From positions 1-36,547 of the forward strand of contig OMXA01000040.1 of the NCBI GenBank assembly GCA_900314905.1: a stretch of 36,547 bases of DNA, read 5' to 3'. How positions within the stretch are numbered: position 1 is the stretch's first letter; each line of letters begins with the position of its first letter. A program made the position numbers and the translations under genes. The notes beneath the pieces were generated by a model. The model had not been told where the DNA came from and did not search any database. It saw nothing but the letters and a program-made list of their open reading frames with translations. Below are positions 18,085 through 26,917 of the stretch, one piece after another. Origin of the DNA: an uncultured Erysipelotrichaceae bacterium. GTDB lineage: Bacteria; Bacillota_I; Bacilli_A; Erysipelotrichales; Erysipelotrichaceae.

Positions 18085-18822
18085 ATGGCAGTCAGAGTCG
18101 GTTATCAGGGAAATCACGGAACATTCAGCGAGATTGCCGTGATGAAGTATTTTGCAGGAAAACAGGCTGAGCTTTGCGGTTACCGCAGCTTTCCGGAGAT
18201 TCTTTCGGATTTGGAGAAGGGCGTGCTCGACTATGGAATGCTGCCGGTGGAAAATACCACGACCGGAGTCATCGCGAGAACGTATGACCTGTTTCAGAGT
18301 CATGAGGTCCATGCGGTCGGGGAGTGCAGCGGATTCTTTGAAGCCCATCCGGGGATCCAGGCAATTGCCTGGCAGGATACCTCGGCGGCGGTACGTCATG
18401 TTGCAGAGTGCGCCGATCATTCCAAGGCTGCCCTTGGTTCGTACCGCGCGGCAGAATACTATCATCTGGAGTCCCTGCAGAAAGAGGTGCAGGACAGCGA
18501 TACGAACATGACGAGATTCCTGCTCATGAGTGCAATTCATGAGGAGCCCCAGGATGGAACGAAGATCTCGATTATCCTGACCGTGAATCATGAGCCGGGA
18601 GCACTTTATCATGCGCTCGGGATTCTGAGCTATGCGGATATCAATGTGACGAAGCTGGAGTCACGGCCGATTCCCTCGGAGCCGTTTCATTACCGGTTCT
18701 ATCTGGATTTTGAAGGAAACCGCAGCGATCCGTTTGTTCAGACCGCTCTGCTGAAGCTGAAGGAACATAGTCTGGATCTGAAAATCCTTGGGTGCTACCG
18801 GGCGGCAGATCCGGGAGAATGA
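18085..18822 (+). CDS. pheA: Prephenate dehydratase
   Basis: 245 aa, ACAGGAGA before the ATG. Residues 1 to about 165 are the periplasmic-binding-like catalytic domain: GYQGNHGTFSE, DYGMLPVENTTTGV, and NMTRFLLM, which holds the catalytic Thr-Arg-Phe. Residues about 170-245 are an ACT domain with LESRPIPSEPFHYRFYLDFEG, the Phe-binding ESRP motif that gives feedback inhibition. It converts prephenate to phenylpyruvate. It is shorter than the usual 270-280 aa and the family's Q-L substrate-pocket block reads FEAHPGIQAIAW. No chorismate mutase domain is attached. It stands upstream of the attenuator and so is outside aro control by that terminator. Confidence 0.92.
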   Translation: MAVRVGYQGNHGTFSEIAVMKYFAGKQAELCGYRSFPEILSDLEKGVLDYGMLPVENTTTGVIARTYDLFQSHEVHAVGECSGFFEAHPGIQAIAWQDTSAAVRHVAECADHSKAALGSYRAAEYYHLESLQKEVQDSDTNMTRFLLMSAIHEEPQDGTKISIILTVNHEPGALYHALGILSYADINVTKLESRPIPSEPFHYRFYLDFEGNRSDPFVQTALLKLKEHSLDLKILGCYRAADPGE

Positions 18823-18848
18823 AATAATTTTCAGATGATTTTCAGCTC

Positions 18849-18877
18849 TTTACATCCTGCTTCCGGAGAGGTAAGAT
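18849..18877 (+). promoter_or_regulatory. Promoter of the aromatic operon leader
   Basis: TTTACA (18849-18854), a 17-nt spacer and TAAGAT (18872-18877) fit a sigma-A promoter. Transcription would begin near 18884, about 9 nt before the leader peptide ATG. GGAGAGG at 18865-18871 lies inside the spacer and would serve as a leader RBS only on read-through RNA from pheA. Confidence 0.5.
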
Positions 18878-18892
18878 AGTCCTGGTAAATTT

Positions 18893-18934
18893 ATGAGAAC
18901 GATGTACGGTTACTATTACTTTACCTTTAGATAG
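18893..18934 (+). CDS. Tyr/Phe-rich attenuation leader peptide
   Basis: A 13-codon frame reads MRTMYGYYYFTFR and ends with TAG. Six of 13 residues are Tyr (4) or Phe (2), with Tyr-Tyr-Tyr-Phe in a row, and it lies just upstream of a hairpin and terminator before an operon that makes Tyr and Phe precursors. That is the layout of ribosome-mediated attenuation in the phe/trp/his leaders of enterobacteria. A second in-frame ATG at 18902 is an alternative start. Translation of the peptide measures charged tRNA-Tyr and tRNA-Phe. The SD is weak (GGT 8 nt upstream), so initiation may be near-leaderless. Confidence 0.85.
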   Translation: MRTMYGYYYFTFR

Positions 18935-18991
18935 TCAGGGTCATTCAGATAATGGCCCGTTTTGTGTGAAGGCGTTATCTGAATGGTAAAG
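18919..18991 (+). promoter_or_regulatory. Attenuator hairpin (regions 1 and 2) of the aro operon
   Basis: ATTCAGATAA (18943-18952) pairs perfectly with TTATCTGAAT (18975-18984), extended by flanking pairs to about 14 bp. In addition CTTTACC in the leader's Tyr-Phe-Thr codons (18919-18925) pairs with GGTAAAG (18985-18991). The right arm CGTTATC (18973-18979) can instead pair with the GATAATG at 19016-19022, inside the terminator. The identical GATAATG occurs in the left arm (18948-18954), so the two structures are mutually exclusive. Confidence 0.75.
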
Positions 18992-19009
18992 AGAACCGAG
19001 CGATCTGAG

Positions 19010-19040
19010 CCACAGGATAATGTCCTGTGGTTTTATTTTT
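19010..19040 (+). terminator. Attenuator terminator before aroB
   Basis: CCACAGGA (19010-19017) pairs with TCCTGTGG (19023-19030) around a 5-nt loop and is followed by TTTTATTTTT. It ends 16 nt before the aroB start, so it must be bypassed for operon expression. It therefore acts as a regulated terminator rather than as the end of pheA. Confidence 0.85.
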
Positions 19041-19056
19041 CAGGGGAGATGGAACG

Positions 19057-20061
19057 ATGAAGATTGAAGTTCATACCAGACAGAGGAATTATCCGATCAT
19101 TCTGGAACATGGGATTCTTTCCAGAGCGAAGGAAGTGATCGGCGAGTGCGGACATCCTGTGCTGATCAGCGACAGCGGAGTGCCGGAGAAATGGCGCAGC
19201 CTGCTGCAGCAGCAGTATCCTGATTCCCCGATGATTGTGGTGCCGCATGGAGAAGAATCCAAGAGTATCCGCCAGTGGTCTATGATTCTTTCACGTATGC
19301 TGAAAGAGAATGTGTCCAGAAAGGATGCTGTGATTGCCCTGGGCGGAGGAGTCGTCGGAGATCTGGCCGGATTCTGCGCTGCTTCGTATAAAAGAGGAAT
19401 CCGCTGGGTGAATATTCCTACGACGATGCTGTCGATTGTAGACAGTTCCATCGGCGGAAAGACCGCAGTGGACCTGGATGGAATCAAGAACTGCGTAGGT
19501 GCGTTCTGGCAGCCTTCCATGGTGCTGGCAGATCCGGAAGTGCTTGCCACGCTCAGCCCCAGGCTTCTTTCAGAAGGAATGGCGGAAGCGGTGAAGATGG
19601 GCATGACCCATGATCCGGAATTGTTTGCTTTGTTTGAACATGATGACTATCTGGACCATCTGGATGAGATCATCTATCGTTCCCTGGAGGTCAAGCGCAG
19701 GGTCGTGGAACACGATGAAGAAGAAAATGGCGAACGGATGCTGCTGAATTTCGGACATACCTATGGACATGCATATGAAAGCTACTATGAGATGAACCGG
19801 TATCTTCATGGCGAATGCGTCGGCATGGGCATGATGACGATTCTGAAGAATCCACAACTGAAACAGAGACTGTCAGCGGTGATGACCAGACTGAATCTGC
19901 CTCAGTCCTGCGATGCGGATCGGGAACGGATCTGCCAGCTCGTGCAGAACGACAAGAAAGCAGATCATGATACGGTAACGATCGTCCAGGTGGATGAGAT
20001 CGGCAGAGGCCATCTCGAAGTATGGAACCAGGAAGAAATCCGGGAGGGGATCGGACTATGA
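19057..20061 (+). CDS. aroB: 3-dehydroquinate synthase
   Basis: 334 aa. The ATG at 19057 follows GGGGAGA; an in-frame ATG at 19027 lies in the terminator and is rejected. NAD-binding and catalytic segments are visible: VPHGEESKS, ALGGGVVGDLAGFCAASYKRGI, PTTMLSIVDSSIGGKTAVD, and the zinc-binding LNFGHTYGHAYE and LHGECVGMGM. It converts DAHP to 3-dehydroquinate, the second step of the shikimate pathway, in the cytoplasm. At 334 aa it is slightly shorter than the usual 350-360. It is the first structural gene of the operon and its stop overlaps the aroC start by ATGA. Confidence 0.96.
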   Translation: MKIEVHTRQRNYPIILEHGILSRAKEVIGECGHPVLISDSGVPEKWRSLLQQQYPDSPMIVVPHGEESKSIRQWSMILSRMLKENVSRKDAVIALGGGVVGDLAGFCAASYKRGIRWVNIPTTMLSIVDSSIGGKTAVDLDGIKNCVGAFWQPSMVLADPEVLATLSPRLLSEGMAEAVKMGMTHDPELFALFEHDDYLDHLDEIIYRSLEVKRRVVEHDEEENGERMLLNFGHTYGHAYESYYEMNRYLHGECVGMGMMTILKNPQLKQRLSAVMTRLNLPQSCDADRERICQLVQNDKKADHDTVTIVQVDEIGRGHLEVWNQEEIREGIGL

Positions 20062-21164
20062 AAAATACATTCGGAAATGAAGTGACGCTCACGCTGTTCG
20101 GAGAATCGCATGGTCCGGCAATCGGATGCGTGATCGATGGCCTGCCTTCCGGTTTCCGCATTGATGAAGAACAGCTCAGGCAGGACATGGACAAGCGCAG
20201 AGCTGCCGGGTCTATCTCCACAGGGCGCCATGAGGCAGATGAGGTGCAGTTTCTTTCGGGGGTGAAAGAGGGGGTTACTGAAGGAACGCCATTGGCGATT
20301 CTGATTGCCAATACCAATGTTCGCTCGAAAGACTATTCTGCTCTTGAGCATCTGGCTCGTCCCGGACATGCGGATTATGCCGCAGAGATGCGCTATCACG
20401 GCTTCCAGGATGCCAGAGGCGGCGGCCATTTCAGCGGGAGGCTGACCGCGCCGATTGTCGCAGCAGGATCGATTCTGCGGCAGATGCTTGCGAGCCATGG
20501 CATCCTGATTGCAACGCATATTGCTTCCCTGCATGGAGTCGAAGATGACCCGTTTTCAGAATCGTCTCTGATAGAGCAGATGAATCTCCTGAACCGCCGG
20601 ACGTTTGCGGTGCTGAATGAAGAAGCTGGCGAGCTGATGAAGCAGGAAATCCGCAAGGCCGCAGAATCCCTGGATTCTGTCGGAGGCATTCTGGAGACAG
20701 TGGTATCCGGCATGGAAGCTGGCATCGGTGAGCCGGAGTTCGGTTCCGTGGAAAGCGAGCTTTCCGGTGCGCTGTTCTCGATTCCGGCGGTCAAAGGAGT
20801 GGAATTCGGAGAAGGTTTCCGGTTTGCACAGCTGTTCGGAAGCCAGGCAAATGATGCGTTTGAGATCAGAGATGGGAAAGCCGTGACGAAGACGAATCAT
20901 AATGGCGGAATCAACGGGGGCATCACCAATGGCATGCCGATCTGTTTCCGGATTGTGATCAAGCCGACTCCTTCCATCGCAAGGAAACAGGACACCGTGA
21001 ATTTCAGAACGATGGAGAATACGCAAATCGAGATTCATGGACGACATGATCCTGCCATCATTCACCGGGCAAGAGCAGTCGTGGATGCGATGACTGCGAT
21101 CACGCTTGCAGACATGCTGGCATCTGCTCATGGCCGGCAGTGGCTGAAAGGAGAAGAGAGATGA
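20058..21164 (+). CDS. aroC: Chorismate synthase
   Basis: 368 aa. Start at 20058 (ATGA overlap), since MKNTFGNEVTLTLFGESHGPA is the family start; an upstream ATG at 20022 is inside aroB. Signature segments are FGESHGPAIG, GRHEADEVQFLSGV, RPGHADYAAE, DARGGGHFSGRLTAPIVAAG and GGINGGITNGMPI. The enzyme removes phosphate from EPSP to make chorismate and needs reduced FMN; no flavin reductase domain is attached. It precedes the earlier-step genes, an order common in Firmicutes operons. The end overlaps the next start. Confidence 0.96.
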   Translation: MKNTFGNEVTLTLFGESHGPAIGCVIDGLPSGFRIDEEQLRQDMDKRRAAGSISTGRHEADEVQFLSGVKEGVTEGTPLAILIANTNVRSKDYSALEHLARPGHADYAAEMRYHGFQDARGGGHFSGRLTAPIVAAGSILRQMLASHGILIATHIASLHGVEDDPFSESSLIEQMNLLNRRTFAVLNEEAGELMKQEIRKAAESLDSVGGILETVVSGMEAGIGEPEFGSVESELSGALFSIPAVKGVEFGEGFRFAQLFGSQANDAFEIRDGKAVTKTNHNGGINGGITNGMPICFRIVIKPTPSIARKQDTVNFRTMENTQIEIHGRHDPAIIHRARAVVDAMTAITLADMLASAHGRQWLKGEER

Positions 21165-22405
21165 AACTCGGACTGATCGGCTATCCGCTTGGCCATTCCT
21201 GGTCACCGGAAATTCATTCGTTCTTTCTGAAGCAGAACTGCTATTCGCTGATTGAACTGAAGGAAGATGAACTCGGACCGTTTCTGGAGAAGAAGGAATT
21301 TGATGGCCTGAATGTGACGATCCCTTATAAGCAGAAAGTCATTCCATATCTGGATGAGCTTGATCCTCTTGCGGAAGAAGCCGGAGCAGTGAATACGATC
21401 GTGAACCAGAACGGACGGCTGATCGGACATAATACGGATGTCGAAGGCTTCCGGGATATGATGCTTGCCCATGGCATTGATGTGAAGAGCTCAAAGACAG
21501 CCGTGATCGGAGATGGCGGTGTTTCCAGGGCAATCCAGTGTGCGCTGAGGCAGCTTGGTGCAGATTATTCCGTGACGAGCCGCAAGCATAGCCCCGGCTC
21601 CATCACGATGCTAGAGCTTCTAGAGCATGCGGCGGATTATTCGTGTCTGATCAATGCGACTCCGCTTGGCATGAAGCCGCATGATGAAGAACTCCCGGCG
21701 GATCCGAAGATGTTCGGAAATCTGAAGGATGCAGTGGATGTGATTGCAAATCCGCTGCGGACCAGGTTCCTGTTTGAAGCCAAGATGAAGGGATGCAGAA
21801 CCTGCGGCGGGTTTGAGATGCTGGTCCGCCAGGCAGCTGCTGCCGATCGCTGGTTTGCAGATATGCAGATTCCGGAAGCAGAGATTCTTGCATGCATGCG
21901 ATTCCTGTATGATCAGCGAAGAAGCGTCGTGCTCATCGGAATGCCGACATCCGGCAAGACGACCATCGCGAAGCTGCTGGCCGAAGAGACCGGAAAGAAG
22001 CGGATTGAGATGGATGACATCATTGAAAAAGAGATGGGAATGAAGATCCGCACCTGCTTCCAGGAACGCGGGGAAACGTATTTCCGCGATCTCGAGAGCA
22101 GACTCTGCGAATCGCTGAAGGAGGCTGGCGGAAGTGTGATCTCCTGCGGAGGCGGGGTGATCAAGCGCCGGGAAAACATGCAGGCATTAGCCGAGAATGG
22201 CCTGATTCTCTGGCTGGATCGTCCCCTGGATCTTCTGTACGGATCGAATGATCGGCCGCTGTCGATTGACAGAGAACAGGTTGTATCGCTCTATGAAGCG
22301 CGCAGGCCCGACTATGAGCGCTATGCGGATGTACGGATTGAGAATTCAGGCTCCGTGAACGAAACGATGGAACAGATCAGAAAGGCAATGGAGGAAACCA
22401 TATGA
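21161..22405 (+). CDS. aroE-aroK: Fused shikimate dehydrogenase-shikimate kinase
   Basis: 414 aa. Residues 1 to about 245 are AroE: GLIGYPLGHSWSPEIHSFF, FDGLNVTIPYKQKVIPYLDE (catalytic Lys), GAVNTIVNQNGRLIGHNTD, the NADP loop AVIGDGGVSRAI and INATPLGMKP. Residues about 250-414 are AroK: P-loop VLIGMPTSGKTTIAKLLAE, DDIIEKEMG, FRDLESR, ISCGGGVIKR and NDRPLS. One reading frame joins them with no stop. The product carries out dehydroshikimate reduction and shikimate 3-phosphorylation, steps four and five. The AroE NADP loop (GDGGVSRA) differs slightly from the usual GAGGAA/SRA. AAAGGAG lies before the ATG. Confidence 0.94.
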   Translation: MKLGLIGYPLGHSWSPEIHSFFLKQNCYSLIELKEDELGPFLEKKEFDGLNVTIPYKQKVIPYLDELDPLAEEAGAVNTIVNQNGRLIGHNTDVEGFRDMMLAHGIDVKSSKTAVIGDGGVSRAIQCALRQLGADYSVTSRKHSPGSITMLELLEHAADYSCLINATPLGMKPHDEELPADPKMFGNLKDAVDVIANPLRTRFLFEAKMKGCRTCGGFEMLVRQAAAADRWFADMQIPEAEILACMRFLYDQRRSVVLIGMPTSGKTTIAKLLAEETGKKRIEMDDIIEKEMGMKIRTCFQERGETYFRDLESRLCESLKEAGGSVISCGGGVIKRRENMQALAENGLILWLDRPLDLLYGSNDRPLSIDREQVVSLYEARRPDYERYADVRIENSGSVNETMEQIRKAMEETI

Positions 22406-23424
22406 TCATCACCCTTAAGAAGAACGCACCCCAGGAAGAAATCGAGAAGCTGCATAAGCAGTTTGAGGATAAGGGACTGCAGGTCAGCATCATCCAGGGA
22501 GAAAACTGGAATGTATGGGGCTTAGTCGGAGATACGACCAGACTGGATGAACGTCTGATCCAGGCAAATGAGTGGGTGGAGAACGTTCAGCGTGTCCAGG
22601 CTCCGTACAAGCTTGCCAATCGCATGTTCCATCCCCAGGATACGATTGTGGATCTTGGCCATGGCATCAGGATCGGAAATGGACAGCCGATCGTGCTGAT
22701 GGCAGGACCCTGTGCGGTCGAAGGAAAGAAGGAAGTAGAAGAGATTGCAGAAGAAGTTCACGCGGCAGGCGCGAACGTGCTGCGCGGCGGTGCTTATAAG
22801 CCGCGTACGTCACCGTATTCGTTCCAGGGGCTTGGCCATGAAGGAATCCTGGATCTCTATGAAGCAGGCCAGAAGAACGGCATGCCCGTTGTCTCGGAAA
22901 TCATGTCTGCGGATAAGCTGGATGAGTTTTCAAAATACGTGGATGTGCTGCAGATCGGCGCGAGAAATATGCAGAACTTCGATCTCCTGAAGGCAGTCGG
23001 ACGCACGAAGAAACCAGTTCTCCTGAAGCGGGGAATGTCGGCAACGATTGAAGAATGGATCATGAGTGCAGAGTATATCATGGCCAGCGGCAACCCGAAT
23101 GTCATCTTCTGCGAGCGCGGGATCCGCACCTATGAGAAGTACACACGCAATACGATGGATCTGGCAGTGGTGCCGATTCTGCGGGAACGGACGCATCTGC
23201 CGATCGTGATTGATCCTTCTCATTCTTCCGGTGACTGGAAGCTGATCGAACCAGTTTCGCTTGCGGCGATCGCTGCGGGATGCGATGGCCTCATCATCGA
23301 ATGCCATAACCACCCGGATCAGGCAATGTCTGATGGCGCGCAGTCTCTGAAGCCGGAGAAGTTCGCGCATCTGGTCAGCAGCGCGAAGAAGGTTGCAGAG
23401 GCAGTCGGGAGAAGCATCCGATGA
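22402..23424 (+). CDS. aroF: 3-deoxy-7-phosphoheptulonate synthase
   Basis: 340 aa, ATGA overlap with the preceding gene. Residues 1 to about 70 form the ferredoxin-like front domain (MIITLKKNAPQEEIEKLHKQ, VEDTTRLDE-type segment) seen in type I-beta enzymes and used for Tyr/Phe feedback in Thermotoga. The TIM barrel follows with GPCAVEG, RGGAYKPRTSPYSFQGLG, LLKRGMSATIEEW, CERGIRTYE and IDPSHSSGDW. It condenses PEP and erythrose 4-phosphate, the first committed step. The domain is not the chorismate mutase found in Bacillus homologues, so mutase activity is not supplied here. The enzyme is likely controlled both by the attenuator and by allostery. Confidence 0.96.
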   Translation: MIITLKKNAPQEEIEKLHKQFEDKGLQVSIIQGENWNVWGLVGDTTRLDERLIQANEWVENVQRVQAPYKLANRMFHPQDTIVDLGHGIRIGNGQPIVLMAGPCAVEGKKEVEEIAEEVHAAGANVLRGGAYKPRTSPYSFQGLGHEGILDLYEAGQKNGMPVVSEIMSADKLDEFSKYVDVLQIGARNMQNFDLLKAVGRTKKPVLLKRGMSATIEEWIMSAEYIMASGNPNVIFCERGIRTYEKYTRNTMDLAVVPILRERTHLPIVIDPSHSSGDWKLIEPVSLAAIAAGCDGLIIECHNHPDQAMSDGAQSLKPEKFAHLVSSAKKVAEAVGRSIR

Positions 23425-24689
23425 GAGTGAAGATCTTTCCTGGAAGAATTTCAGGAGGAGAAGTGACGATTCCGGCAAGCAAGTCGCTGTCGCATCGGGT
23501 TCTGATTTCAGCGGCGCTGGCAAAGGGAACTTCTGTGCTGCATCATGTCGCTGGCAATCAGGATACGGAAGCGACACTGCGGTGTCTGAAGGCACTTGGA
23601 GCGGCTTTCGAGAAAAAACGAGACGGGCTTTCTGTCACTGGTATCAGAGACTGGTCTGCCTATGATGGTTCCGTGCTGGATTGCGGAGAATCAGGCAGCA
23701 CCCTGCGCTTTCTGATCCCGATTGCGGCAATGACCGGAAGGACCGTGACATTTACCGGACATGGCAAGCTGATGCAGCGGCCGCAGTCCGTCTATGAAGA
23801 CCTGTTTTGCAGAAAAGGGCTGCAGTTTGAAAAAGATGGAGAATTCCTGCGGGTGCGGGGACCTCTGCCTGGCGGAGAATATGTGCTGAAGGGAGATGTC
23901 TCCTCGCAGTTCATCACCGGGCTTCTGTTCACGCTTCCCCTTGCGGAAGAGGACTCCGTGATCCGGATTCTTCCGCCGTATGAGTCCCGTTCTTATGTCC
24001 TGCTTACGGAGCAGATTCTGAAAGGATCCGGGATCCGGATCCTGGATGATGGTGCTGAAATCCGTATCCCCGGTAATCAGCACTATCTCCCTTGCGAGCG
24101 TACGGTAGAAGGCGATGATTCCCAGGCAGCATTCTTCGAGACACTCGGCGTGATCACGGACCAGCCGGTATGCATTCATGGTCTCAATCCTGCAAGCATG
24201 CAGGGGGACCATGCCATGCTGAGCATCCTCAGGAAGATGGGCGGGAACCTGAGAGAGGATGGAGATCTCGTGACTGCAGAACCATCGGTTCTGCATGGAA
24301 CAATGATTGACCTTGAAAACTGCCCGGATCTCGGACCGGTATTGTTTGCGGCGGCAGCACAGGCAGAGGGGACGACAGAGTTCATTCATGCCGGCCGTCT
24401 TCGCATCAAGGAAAGCGATCGGATTGCGGCCATGGAAGAAGAGCTGAGGAAGCTTGGGGCAATCATGCACAGTCAGGAAGATTCTGCTGTGGTTTCCGGA
24501 AAGGCGAAGATTTCCGGAGGGGTTCTTCTGAATGGTCACAATGATCATCGGATTGTCATGGCGCTTGCAGTTCTTGCATGCACTGCGGATTCTCCGGTTG
24601 AAATCGATGGCGCAGAAGCAGTAAATAAGAGCTACCCGGAGTTCTTTGAGGATCTGAAGAAAGCGGGTGTCAGGGTGGAACAGGTATGA
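23421..24689 (+). CDS. aroA: 3-phosphoshikimate 1-carboxyvinyltransferase (EPSP synthase)
   Basis: 422 aa, ATGA overlap. Motifs: PASKSLSHRVLISAALA (usually PGDKSISHR, PEP/S3P binding), LDCGESGSTLRFLIPI, LMQRPQSVYEDL (R of the RPM-type block), GDVSSQFITGLLF, SDRIAAMEEELRKLG and NGHNDHRIVMALA. It joins shikimate 3-phosphate and PEP. The A-S-K in place of G-S/D-K and the LMQRP block match class II-like enzymes, which tolerate glyphosate better, but this is an inference from two short motifs. It is full length. Confidence 0.95.
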   Translation: MRVKIFPGRISGGEVTIPASKSLSHRVLISAALAKGTSVLHHVAGNQDTEATLRCLKALGAAFEKKRDGLSVTGIRDWSAYDGSVLDCGESGSTLRFLIPIAAMTGRTVTFTGHGKLMQRPQSVYEDLFCRKGLQFEKDGEFLRVRGPLPGGEYVLKGDVSSQFITGLLFTLPLAEEDSVIRILPPYESRSYVLLTEQILKGSGIRILDDGAEIRIPGNQHYLPCERTVEGDDSQAAFFETLGVITDQPVCIHGLNPASMQGDHAMLSILRKMGGNLREDGDLVTAEPSVLHGTMIDLENCPDLGPVLFAAAAQAEGTTEFIHAGRLRIKESDRIAAMEEELRKLGAIMHSQEDSAVVSGKAKISGGVLLNGHNDHRIVMALAVLACTADSPVEIDGAEAVNKSYPEFFEDLKKAGVRVEQV

Positions 24690-25531
24690 TCACACAGAAT
24701 ACTGTCATTACAATTGTCGGTCTCGGACTGCTGGGCGGCAGCTATGCACAAGGTCTTCGCAGAGAAGGGTATCGGGTCAGAGGAATTGACATCGATCCCC
24801 AGGCAGTCGAATATGCAAGGAAGAAAGACTGGATTGAAGAAGGCGGAACGGATGCTTCGCTGGTGCGGGGCAGCGATCTTGTGATCTTTGCGCTTTATCC
24901 GCATGTCTTTGTTTCATGGATTGCCGAGCATCAGCAGGAGCTGAAGCCAGGCTGCCTGATCACGGATGTGACGGGTATCAAGCGAAAGGTCATTGAAGAA
25001 GTGAACCGGATCCTTCGGAAGGACGTGGAGTATATTGCCTGCCATCCGATGGCTGGAAGAGAGTTCAGAGGAATTGCCTACAGTGATGCGGATCGCTTCC
25101 GGCAGGCGAATTTTCTGATTGTGCCGACCAGGGAAAATACAGAATCCGCAATCGCATCCGCAAGACAGCTTGCGGAGATTCTGCAGTTTCATCATATTGC
25201 GGTCCTGAGCCCGGAAGAACATGATCAGATGATCGGCTATCTGTCGCAGCTGACGCATGTGATTGCGGTGTGCCTGATGAATGCAAATGACAATACGCAT
25301 CTGGCGCAGTATACCGGAGACTCGTTCAGGGATCTGACCAGGATTGCAAAGATCAATGAGAATATGTGGCCGGAGCTGTTCATCCTGAACAAGGATTATC
25401 TGATTTCGGAAATCGATGCCTTTGAGGAAGAGCTGATGACGTTCCGGAAGATGATTGAGGAAGAAGATACGGAAAGCATGAAGCAGAAGATGATACAGTC
25501 GACGAAGAGAAGGAAGTGCTTTGACAGATGA
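24686..25531 (+). CDS. tyrA: Prephenate dehydrogenase
   Basis: 281 aa, ATGA overlap. The Rossmann loop is IVGLGLLGGSYAQGL; GCLITDVTGIKRKVIEEV, CHPMAGREFRGIAYSDADRF (catalytic His region) and LSPEEHDQMIGYLSQLTHV complete the TyrA layout. It makes 4-hydroxyphenylpyruvate from prephenate with NAD. There is no ACT domain and no chorismate mutase domain, so the Tyr branch here is controlled mainly through the attenuator or through DAHP synthase. Confidence 0.95.
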   Translation: MITQNTVITIVGLGLLGGSYAQGLRREGYRVRGIDIDPQAVEYARKKDWIEEGGTDASLVRGSDLVIFALYPHVFVSWIAEHQQELKPGCLITDVTGIKRKVIEEVNRILRKDVEYIACHPMAGREFRGIAYSDADRFRQANFLIVPTRENTESAIASARQLAEILQFHHIAVLSPEEHDQMIGYLSQLTHVIAVCLMNANDNTHLAQYTGDSFRDLTRIAKINENMWPELFILNKDYLISEIDAFEEELMTFRKMIEEEDTESMKQKMIQSTKRRKCFDR

Positions 25532-25995
25532 AGAAGATCATGATTCTGAATGGGCCGAATCTGAATATGCTCGGCATCCGGGAGAAGAATCTCTATGGGA
25601 AAGGAAGTTATGAGGACCTGACTGCTTTTCTGAAGGAAGAAGCGAGGAAGCGGGGAATCGAGGCAGACTGCCGGCAGTCCAACCATGAAGGGGATCTGGT
25701 GGACTGGATCCAGGAGGCTTATTTTTCGCATCTGCTCGGAGTGGTGATCAATCCTGGTGCTTATACGCATACCAGCATTGCGCTGGCGGATGCGGTGAAG
25801 GCAGTTGCCCCTCTTCCGGTGGTAGAAGTCCATATCACGGATATAAGCAGCAGGGAAGAGTTCCGTCATATTTCCTATGAGGCGCCTTATTGCCTGGCTC
25901 AGATCAAGGGACATGGCTGGGCTGGCTATGCAGAGGGCATGGACGCGATTCTGAAGGCTGAAAACAAGGCTGATCGCATGGTTGGCAACGGATAA
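25528..25995 (+). CDS. aroQ: 3-dehydroquinate dehydratase, type II
   Basis: 155 aa, ATGA overlap. The type II signature is clear: LNGPNLNMLGIREKNLYG (catalytic Tyr), CRQSNHEGDLVDWI, INPGAYTHTSIALADAV, and VEVHITDISSREEFRH (catalytic His region). It makes 3-dehydroshikimate, step three, by anti elimination. It is the last gene of the aro operon; a new promoter lies in the 47 nt after it. With it all seven chorismate-pathway reactions are encoded in one operon. Confidence 0.96.
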   Translation: MKKIMILNGPNLNMLGIREKNLYGKGSYEDLTAFLKEEARKRGIEADCRQSNHEGDLVDWIQEAYFSHLLGVVINPGAYTHTSIALADAVKAVAPLPVVEVHITDISSREEFRHISYEAPYCLAQIKGHGWAGYAEGMDAILKAENKADRMVGNG

Positions 25996-26042: not shown

Positions 26043-26396
26043 ATGAAGAAAAAAGAACTGTGGATACTGATTCTGATCGCTGCAGGAGCTCTGATTGCAC
26101 TGGTGGTGCTGAACCGGAATGCCCCGGCGGAATCGTCCGGAACTAAGGTAGCGATTCAGCATGGAAATACGATTGTTCAGGAATTTGATCCGGATGTGGA
26201 CGCAATTTATTCCGTTGATGGAGATACTGGCGGCTTGCAGGTAGAGGTCAAGGATGGCAGATGGAGAGTCATCAATGAGAAATGCCCGAACCATATCTGC
26301 GCAAGCATGGGCTGGGCATCGGTGGATGATCCGATTCCGATTACATGCCTTCCGAACAATATCATCATCTATCCCGAGGAGTCTGAGGCAAAATGA
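26043..26396 (+). CDS. NusG domain II-containing membrane-anchored protein
   Basis: 117 aa. N-terminal membrane anchor KELWILILIAAGALIALVVL (about residues 4-23), then the NusG_II-type beta domain with IYSVDGDTGGLQVEVKDGRW and the paired-Cys block EKCPNHICASMGW, followed by ITCLPNNIIIYP. Such proteins are usually next to Gx-transporter genes and occur in flavin-linked extracellular electron-transfer or quinone-related loci in Firmicutes. The domain probably faces outward. The next gene overlaps by ATGA. Confidence 0.9.
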   Translation: MKKKELWILILIAAGALIALVVLNRNAPAESSGTKVAIQHGNTIVQEFDPDVDAIYSVDGDTGGLQVEVKDGRWRVINEKCPNHICASMGWASVDDPIPITCLPNNIIIYPEESEAK

Positions 26397-26917
26397 CGAT
26401 CGATAAGAATCGCCATTTCACTTACCTGGCTCTGCTCAGTGCGATGGCCATCGTGCTGAATCTGGCTGAGTCCATCTATATCGGTCCGATCATCGGCGTG
26501 CTGAGAATCGGCCTGGCGAATATCGTTGCTCTGATTGCGATCCGCCTGCTTGGCGTGAAAGATATGATCATCGTCAATATCATGCGGGTGGTCATCGGCA
26601 ATCTGCTGAGAGGAACGATCTTCGGGAGCACCTTCTGGATCAGTGCCGGCGGCGTGCTGCTTTCAAGCCTGGTGCTGATTCTCTTGGACCGGATGGATTC
26701 TTCGCTGATGTTTACGTCTGTGCTGATGTCGATCGCCCATTCTGTCGGCCAGGTCTTCGTGGTTATGCTGTTCTATATGCAGCCGGGCATTGCAGTGCTG
26801 CTTCCTTATCTTCTGCTGGGCTCGATTCCGACCGGAATCCTGACTGGCTATGTTGCCGGACTGGTGCTGAAGCGGATCAGGCCATTGAGAATCAGACCCA
26901 AGAAGAATACGAACTGA
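26393..26917 (+). CDS. Gx transporter family protein (heptaprenyl diphosphate synthase component I-like)
   Basis: 174 aa with about five membrane segments: LLSAMAIVLNLAESIYIG, IGLANIVALIAIRLLG, a long central helix region (VLLSSLVLILLDRM), VLMSIAHSVGQVFVVMLFYM and LLPYLLLGSIPTGILTGYVAGL. The opening block A-I-V-L-N-L-x-E-x-x-I and G-L-A-N-I are conserved in this family. The family was named after a Bacillus subunit, yet it lacks prenyl synthase motifs and is more likely a small-molecule carrier of the ECF S-component type. Together with the NusG-II protein it forms a two-gene unit closed by a strong terminator. Confidence 0.88.
   Translation: MTIDKNRHFTYLALLSAMAIVLNLAESIYIGPIIGVLRIGLANIVALIAIRLLGVKDMIIVNIMRVVIGNLLRGTIFGSTFWISAGGVLLSSLVLILLDRMDSSLMFTSVLMSIAHSVGQVFVVMLFYMQPGIAVLLPYLLLGSIPTGILTGYVAGLVLKRIRPLRIRPKKNTN

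Follow-up and report, generated by a model that had tools for sequence, protein, structure and literature searches.

In the enterobacterial pheA and pheST attenuators, which are under Phe control, a short open reading frame (ORF) bearing a series of regulatory codons is combined with alternative hairpins and an intrinsic terminator, and Rfam includes a Phe leader family. The enterobacterial his attenuator can be written as six segments, A to F: a ribosome stalled on A leads to B:C and D:E pairing and to read-through, and a ribosome that has moved further on leads to C:D and E:F pairing and to termination. For Acholeplasma aroF, a motif named uORFC-13-1 has been proposed to comprise a terminator and an upstream ORF (uORF) in which Phe is encoded once or more; in the excerpts of PMC8632094 used here, the motif is located solely upstream of DAHP synthase, in Acholeplasma and in environmental sequences of unassigned origin, a Tyr run is not mentioned, and an extra base-paired substructure is given without a stated role. 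His-leader attenuators of his operons are described for six species of Erysipelotrichales (PMC9413887, excerpts), and His leader peptides are described upstream of hisS-type genes in bacilli (PMC2965389, excerpts). The enterobacterial pheA/pheST leader-peptide attenuators are also mentioned in PMC1262725, in which, as far as its excerpted text goes, the Phe and Tyr operons of Actinobacteria are stated to show no conserved RNA structure.

This study concerns a stretch of 36,547 nt (the window) from an uncultured Erysipelotrichaceae bacterium, whose source genome is a 2.1-Mb assembly of 76 contigs. In front of its shikimate pathway operon lies a leader from which a transcription attenuator, governed by the position of the ribosome on a Tyr/Phe leader peptide, is proposed with considerable confidence for aroB-aroQ on the grounds of sequence comparison. 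The leader shares with pheA/pheST the short ORF with its codon run, the alternative hairpins and the terminator; it differs in belonging to another phylum, in using Tyr and Phe together and in preceding the operon of the common shikimate pathway, and the enterobacterial pheA-type family in Rfam does not match it. The six-segment logic is that of the his attenuator, except that here A pairs with D, and not with B, when no ribosome is present, and that E includes the terminator loop. Compared by description only, the leader and uORFC-13-1 both consist of a uORF and a terminator upstream of a shikimate pathway gene. The Erysipelotrichales His leaders, again compared by their excerpted descriptions only, come from the same order and likewise combine leader-peptide attenuation with a terminator and an antiterminator, but they carry His codons and precede his operons; the hisS-type leaders of bacilli, as excerpted, differ in amino acid, genes and lineage. 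Among the literature matches listed (titles and abstract openings, with few subscription papers covered), this Tyr/Phe element was not described. The preliminary description had called it seemingly unusual for such a leader to control all of aroB-aroQ, which is softened by what is excerpted of the Phe uORF of Acholeplasma aroF (PMC8632094) and the His leaders of Erysipelotrichales (PMC9413887). Since leader-peptide attenuation, pheA, the Acholeplasma uORF and the Erysipelotrichales His leaders are known, the element in the window is regarded as a variant of a known mechanism.

All leader elements lie on the forward strand within the 234-nt gap between pheA and aroB, and those named in the preliminary description were recovered there base for base from the sequence and its translation. 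A candidate sigma-70-type promoter (18849-18877; pattern scan, 9/12 matches) consists of TTTACA (18849-18854), a 17-nt spacer and TAAGAT (18872-18877), and places the predicted transcript start at about 18884. Downstream of this promoter-like pair, the leader ORF (18893-18934) encodes MRTMYGYYYFTFR followed by a stop, i.e., 13 codons of which four are Tyr and two are Phe, with a contiguous Tyr-Tyr-Tyr-Phe; a second in-frame ATG is located at 18902, and the Tyr/Phe run is kept in 58 loci (see below). In the region 18849-18902, the predicted 5' UTR is very short (9 or 18 nt) and the ribosome-binding site of the leader ORF is weak. Segment A (18908-18934) extends from the Tyr/Phe codons through the stop and is assigned from duplex energy and co-variation to a partner in the D region (18975-18998; -20.2 kcal/mol); as had been pointed out, the leader codons CTTTACC (18919-18925) are complementary to GGTAAAG (18985-18991). 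Segment B (18938-18945), recognized by alignment and co-variation, begins 3 nt past the stop and is the 5' arm of the first hairpin, P1, whose stem is GGGTCATT/AATGGCCC (18938-18945/18951-18958). Segment C (18946-18958) covers the P1 loop and 3' arm and is an alternative partner of D by duplex energy (-13.6 kcal/mol, or -20.6 kcal/mol with B also open). In most relatives a T-rich tract, mostly GTTT or ATTT, stands 3' of P1 (18959-18963 in the window); possibly it is a pause site.

The switch segment D (18970-18993; AGGCGTTATCTGAATGGTAAAGAG) may pair with A, C or E, as judged from co-variation. Segment E (19004-19024) consists of the terminator 5' arm and loop and is the antiterminator partner of D (-19.1 kcal/mol; duplex energy and co-variation). 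The intrinsic terminator E:F (19008-19040), supported by pattern scan, folding and co-variation, has a stem of -17.7 kcal/mol with the 8 bp CCACAGGA/TCCTGTGG (19010-19017/19023-19030), followed by the U tract TTTTATTTTT, which ends at 19040 and thus 16 nt 5' of the aroB ATG (19057). GATAATG does occur twice (18948-18954 and 19016-19022), and either copy is complementary to CGTTATC at 18973-18979; the pairing scheme is amended to one of six segments, in which D has three alternative partners. What had been presented as a 10-bp hairpin is a real complementarity between CATTCAGATAATG (18942-18954) and CGTTATCTGAATG (18973-18985), with a 10-bp perfect match within 13 contiguous pairs including one G-U, but it is better read as C:D, one of the three competing pairings, the local hairpin being 18938-18958.

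Several comparisons with chance expectation were made. The 157-nt leader has a folding z of -5.7 against 200 shuffles, and a scan of both strands of the window for short ORFs (7-30 codons, starting with ATG, GTG or TTG) returned the leader ORF as the only one with at least five Tyr/Phe in the last seven codons. When the 260 nt preceding aroB or its homologue were examined, 31 of 58 regions contained such an ORF, compared with 0/58 on the opposite strand and none in ten rounds of shuffling; under a relaxed rule of four in seven, the figures were 38/58, four, and a shuffle mean of 1.1. These 58 regions are non-duplicate, long enough to test, include distant aroB homologues and were chosen independently of the covariance models. 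The promoter and the terminator are less distinctive as patterns, since the two promoter-like and two terminator-like sites in 18500-19200 are little above the shuffle means of 0.9 and 0.4, and the promoter choices across loci are the best sites of a lax scan run without a chance control.

A search with the AroB protein recovered named relatives that are mostly Erysipelotrichaceae, including Solobacterium-labelled MAGs, Lactimicrobium and Holdemania; 83 loci were reduced to 59 non-duplicate regions upstream of aroB or its homologues for comparison. Leaders were picked by the Tyr/Phe rule (39, with the rule relaxed for L060, L061 and L004), and L004, in which the frame lies inside pheA, was left out of the resulting MAFFT alignment of 38 leaders, across which a shared layout is visible. 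A covariance model built from this alignment (R1) gave matches in 34/71 genomes of the genus and 55/273 genomes of the family. When a further model (R2) was run on 316 genomes of the order, its 60 matches all fell within one Erysipelotrichaceae-like family and were distributed over 14 of 79 genera, and sampled wider searches of the class (395 genomes, six matches) and the phylum (392 genomes, seven matches) returned only members of the same family; because the search filters were strict, distant or weak relatives may escape. The leader ORF is present in 58 of the 60 matches, in 14 genera. The other two, L115 (2249-2389) and L116 (2994-3134), are degenerate remnants with a terminator but no leader ORF; they precede aroC, and their genomes gave no aroB match. 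They are counted in the model match totals and in alignment A2 (see below), and are excluded from the 58.

Among relatives the Tyr/Phe run upstream of aroB is kept, and so is the GATAATG-type pairing, even where its letters have changed. Loss in close relatives, which the preliminary description had named as grounds for rejecting the proposal, is partial: the element is retained in 32 of 43 congeners with a true aroB (44 aroB-matching genomes minus one with only E 1.1e-5), but 11 of the 43 are without a match, and two further congeners have only the degenerate remnant. In eight of these 11 (L033, L035, L037, L038, L039, L054, L063 and L018), there is no attenuator and pheA adjoins aroB directly; the other three are G001, G012 and G043. 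Relocation of the leader to a position upstream of pheA was considered for the congeners lacking it before aroB and is rejected: their loci gave no model match, and by eye no Tyr/Phe ORF was seen upstream of pheA in seven such loci, in which pheA starts soon after an AT-rich stretch.

Because the covariance model was seeded by the Tyr/Phe rule, the 58 loci form a sample biased for Tyr/Phe content (the model-free ORF test above being independent), in which 295 of the 348 codons at positions 2-7 before the stop specify Tyr or Phe (72-97% by position), compared with 0-14% at codons 8-15. At positions 2-7, the third base of codons beginning with TT or TA is T or C in 295 cases and another base in one. 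Both amino acids are found at every position of the run. Four leaders, all before transporters, contain no Tyr (L136, L137, L146 and L147), and five, all before aroB, have no Phe in their last nine codons (L013, L023, L025, L122 and L125). With regard to translation start, the best Shine-Dalgarno pairing has a median of -3.4 kcal/mol in the window's genus (7/32 at -4 or better) and of -6.9 kcal/mol in other genera (23/26 at -4 or better), so that the leader of the window is assumed to be translated. In L003, L016, L114, L122, L125 and L133, the predicted transcript start coincides with an ATG of the ORF, and in other loci it lies up to about 70 nt away.

The commonest form of D is GGCATTATCT, often followed by ATGG. 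In divergent species (e.g., L061, L133, L134, L135, L136, L138 and L148) D has changed and E has changed along with it, and C and A follow variably. Duplex energies in 17 representatives range from -8.6 to -23.3 kcal/mol for D:E, from -6.0 to -20.2 kcal/mol for C:D and from -4.9 to -14.3 kcal/mol for A:D, the last being weak in several species (e.g., -4.9 kcal/mol in L149 and -5.6 kcal/mol in L134). When partner segments were swapped between hand-chosen representatives of the 14 genera, one species each, none of 20,000 swaps was as good as the native combination for B:C (z -6.0), E:F (z -7.7), C:D (z -4.6) or D:E (z -6.3), and one was for A:D (z -4.3), while five control segment pairs remained flat (z 0.1 to 1.1). 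With 17 representatives, in which three genera are represented twice, none of 20,000 swaps was as good for any of the five pairings; the segment boundaries of L025 and L146 were set by hand after a displaced automatic terminator call. On these swap results, all five pairings (A:D, B:C, C:D, D:E and E:F) are read as co-evolved.

Column counts were taken on alignment A2, which has 53 distinct rows, was built with L115 and L116 included and was fitted to a model holding A:D, B:C and E:F, so that the counts favour those three and C:D and D:E stand outside the model. In it, 87.8% of D:E cells are paired, with 16 double changes, and 92.1% of C:D cells, with 20 double changes, counts reached by none of 500 shuffles in either case. 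Sliding the partners by 1-3 columns lowers the paired cells to 22-71% (D:E) and 22-38% (C:D), and leaves covariation scores no higher than 0.054 and 0.034, down from 0.167 and 0.175, respectively. Judged by how many pair positions carry a double change, D:E stays within the shuffles (183/500) and C:D is only mildly beyond them (34/500). RNAalifold on the MAFFT alignment recovered the terminator alone; P1 and the alternative pairings were read from the alignment by eye and then tested by the swaps and counts. Terminator (E:F) and antiterminator (D:E) share E and are mutually exclusive, and both co-vary. The his-type wiring, B:C with D:E versus C:D with E:F in the order A to F, is thus present, with all four pairings co-varying. 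A run of codons for the end products lies just 5' of the terminator, in a frame whose translation is predicted, and the terminator and its mutually exclusive antiterminator precede the first gene. Ribosome-mediated attenuation by a Tyr/Phe leader peptide, as originally suggested, is the best explanation, supported by the conservation of the leader and the co-evolving pairings in relatives.

Leader translation, stalling, the Tyr/Phe response and the order of folding are inferred, and would combine as follows. Under a shortage of charged tRNA-Tyr or tRNA-Phe, the ribosome would stall on codons 2-7 before the stop and mask A and, from the third codon before the stop upstream, would leave B exposed; B:C would then form, leaving D free to pair with E, so that no terminator arises and the shikimate operon is transcribed. 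When Tyr and Phe are plentiful, a ribosome at the stop would mask A and B, and C:D would form, allowing E:F to terminate before aroB. If no ribosome is present, A:D and B:C would be expected, and E:F would again terminate. The spacing agrees with this: the 5' arm of P1 starts 0-3 nt past the stop in 53/58 loci and 4-7 nt past it in the other five, so that a ribosome whose front edge is assumed to reach about 12 nt beyond the A-site would cover B at or near the stop, and would leave B free in 58/58 loci if stalled at least three codons earlier.

Folding calculations would support the switch only if P1 forms first and persists. With P1 kept and the ribosome at codons 2, 3, 4 and 5 before the stop, the mean openness of D over the 58 loci was 0.49, 0.63, 0.63 and 0.54; it was 0.37-0.41 for a ribosome at codons 6-12, 0.37 without a ribosome and lowest, 0.13, in the stop state, so that the codons that free D best are Tyr/Phe codons. 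Without a ribosome, D pairs only partially with A (mean 0.31), and in the equilibrium folds its partner in the stop state is C (0.85). Without persistence of P1 the effect weakens: at equilibrium, D is on average more open with the ribosome on the Tyr/Phe codons than in the stop state in 54/58 loci, and more open than in both the stop and the no-ribosome states in 32/58. For the window, plain equilibrium before E is made leaves D on C (0.96-0.97) for stalls at Y8-F12 unless an early and lasting P1 is assumed. Once E is made and P1 is retained, D:E pairing is 0.99 at codons 8-12, but it also amounts to 0.81-0.82 at codons 2-7 and to 0.89 in the stop state, with 0.53 for codon 13; termination would thus require C:D to form first and to hold. 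A simulation scored by the largest pair probability was saturated (D:E above 0.5 in 53/58 loci without a ribosome, 55/58 at the stop and 58/58 stalled), does not discriminate between states and is not used as support. As equilibrium does not separate the states cleanly, the switch would depend on folding order during transcription, a dependence that is accepted for attenuators.

The last codons of the leader also bear on another reading, in which a nascent chain ending in Phe-Arg-stop would act as an arrest peptide that senses free Tyr/Phe or another metabolite, much as TnaC senses tryptophan. Arg is the last residue in 41 of the 58 loci and the penultimate one is Phe or Tyr in 86%, in keeping with an arrest peptide, but Ser (6), Gly (6), Phe (4) and Asn (1) also occur at the end, and Tyr and Phe interchange at each position of the run. 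The final Arg is mostly AGA within AGATAG, AGATAA or AGATGA (40/58), an AGA-stop string that also pairs with D, and the six leaders with GGA as last codon either have TCC for TCT in D (L122, L125 and L011) or keep TCT and form a G-U pair (L013, L023 and L025). This tracking by D points to a role of the last codons in the RNA, whose letters explain the conservation, rather than to an arrest peptide. Moreover, TnaC-type arrest on plenty, leading to read-through, would presumably be the wrong direction for a biosynthetic operon, and this reading is judged very unlikely. A ligand-binding riboswitch or a protein-bound RNA with a terminator, in which the ORF is incidental, would fit the several helices and the T-rich tract 3' of P1 in most loci; yet conservation tracks codons (TAY and TTY exchange, with nearly no TTR or TAR) at a near-fixed distance to the stop, and the alternative pairings account for the structured segments seen. 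No Rfam family matches the leader at gathering cutoffs, and the only hits at E <=10, three microRNA families and one snoRNA, are far under their cutoffs; the probability of this reading is judged extremely slight.

A T-box or another tRNA-sensing leader would be in keeping with the source genome, in which T-box matches are common (18, nine of them above the cutoff), one of them lying directly before tyrS (L153:1501-1708) with UAC in the specifier region, read as GAA-UAC in our own alignment. However, at gathering cutoffs RF00230 matched neither the window nor any of 15 related loci, and it gave no hit in the leader at E <=10, so that a T-box at this position has practically negligible probability; the earlier statement that no T-box is present applies to the aro operon, but not to the rest of the genome. 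An ordinary terminator between pheA and aro, combined with chance complementarity and without regulation, is suggested by the end of pheA only 26 nt before the promoter-like site, from where the terminator could serve pheA transcripts. It is set against an ORF, a spacing and five co-evolving pairings that are kept across 14 genera, including loci where the gene downstream is an unrelated ABC transporter gene; these conserved, co-varying alternative pairings in relatives are the finding that would be incompatible with chance complementarity, and such a reading retains hardly any probability.

Of the 58 loci, 48 have aroB 3' of the attenuator. Eight (L136, L137, L138 and L146-L150) have a gene for a PF04392 ABC-transporter substrate-binding protein there (two scanned against Pfam, the other six called by BLAST to one of those), and one (L132) has DAHP synthase, 194 nt downstream and followed by prephenate dehydrogenase; in the last (G053) the contig ends 83 nt past the match and aroB begins another contig. 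All 57 readable loci thus have an aromatic biosynthesis gene or a PF04392 transporter downstream, which is consistent with sensing of aromatic amino acids. Runs before PF04392 genes are Phe-only, Tyr-rich or mixed; the transporters presumably carry Tyr or Phe, and the leader codon runs would predict the substrate specificity of the adjacent transporter. In the source genome, a PF04392 gene is located at a T-box match of 87 bits, under the Rfam cutoff (L164). Tyr-tRNA in this genome is probably sensed by the T-box at tyrS and, by the present proposal, by the ribosome at the shikimate operon. This would provide a comparatively well-supported case of leader-peptide attenuation over a shikimate operon in a Firmicutes lineage otherwise rich in T-boxes. 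It is conceivable, though put forward tentatively and as somewhat short of probable, that one ancestral Tyr/Phe attenuator module was moved among aroB and DAHP synthase operons and PF04392 uptake genes, was retuned by its codons (Tyr and Phe together, Tyr-only before aroB, Phe-only before transporters) and is loaded with ribosomes in a near-leaderless manner. The last point derives from leader ORFs that begin no more than about 15 nt from the predicted transcript start and whose ribosome-binding site is weak or missing, as in many representatives of the window's genus and some others. The same codon-run switch would then have been adjusted to Tyr or Phe, and to synthesis or uptake. Since the regulatory RNA letters overlap the last codons and the stop, coding and RNA constraints should be separable by ordinary mutagenesis, and the variation of D and E between genera makes them a good natural set for testing models of co-transcriptional folding.

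In the window, the first controlled gene is aroB (3-dehydroquinate synthase, 19057-20061; TIGR01357, 311.2 bits, cutoff 305), followed on the same strand by aroC (chorismate synthase, listed ORF 20022-21164, with the real start probably more 3'; NF003793, 402.8 bits, cutoff 321), an aroE-aroK fusion (shikimate dehydrogenase/shikimate kinase, 21140-22405; both domains match, and none of the 25 families listed reaches its cutoff), DAHP synthase (22402-23424; NF006421 and TIGR01361 above cutoff), aroA (EPSP synthase, 23421-24689; TIGR01356 above cutoff), a tyrA-like prephenate dehydrogenase gene (24686-25531; best matches under the cutoffs) and aroQ (type II 3-dehydroquinate dehydratase, 25528-25995; TIGR01088, 170.3 bits, cutoff 169.85). 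The genes from aroB to aroQ are tightly packed, and adjacent ORFs overlap. Upstream on the same strand, pheA (prephenate dehydratase, 18085-18822; family match) lacks about 32 residues in frame after HAVGE relative to its homologue in L033, which is either a real deletion or an assembly error. Lastly, a NusG domain II gene and a gene for heptaprenyl diphosphate synthase component I (together 26043-26917) follow aroQ after a gap of 47 nt and may share the aro transcript.
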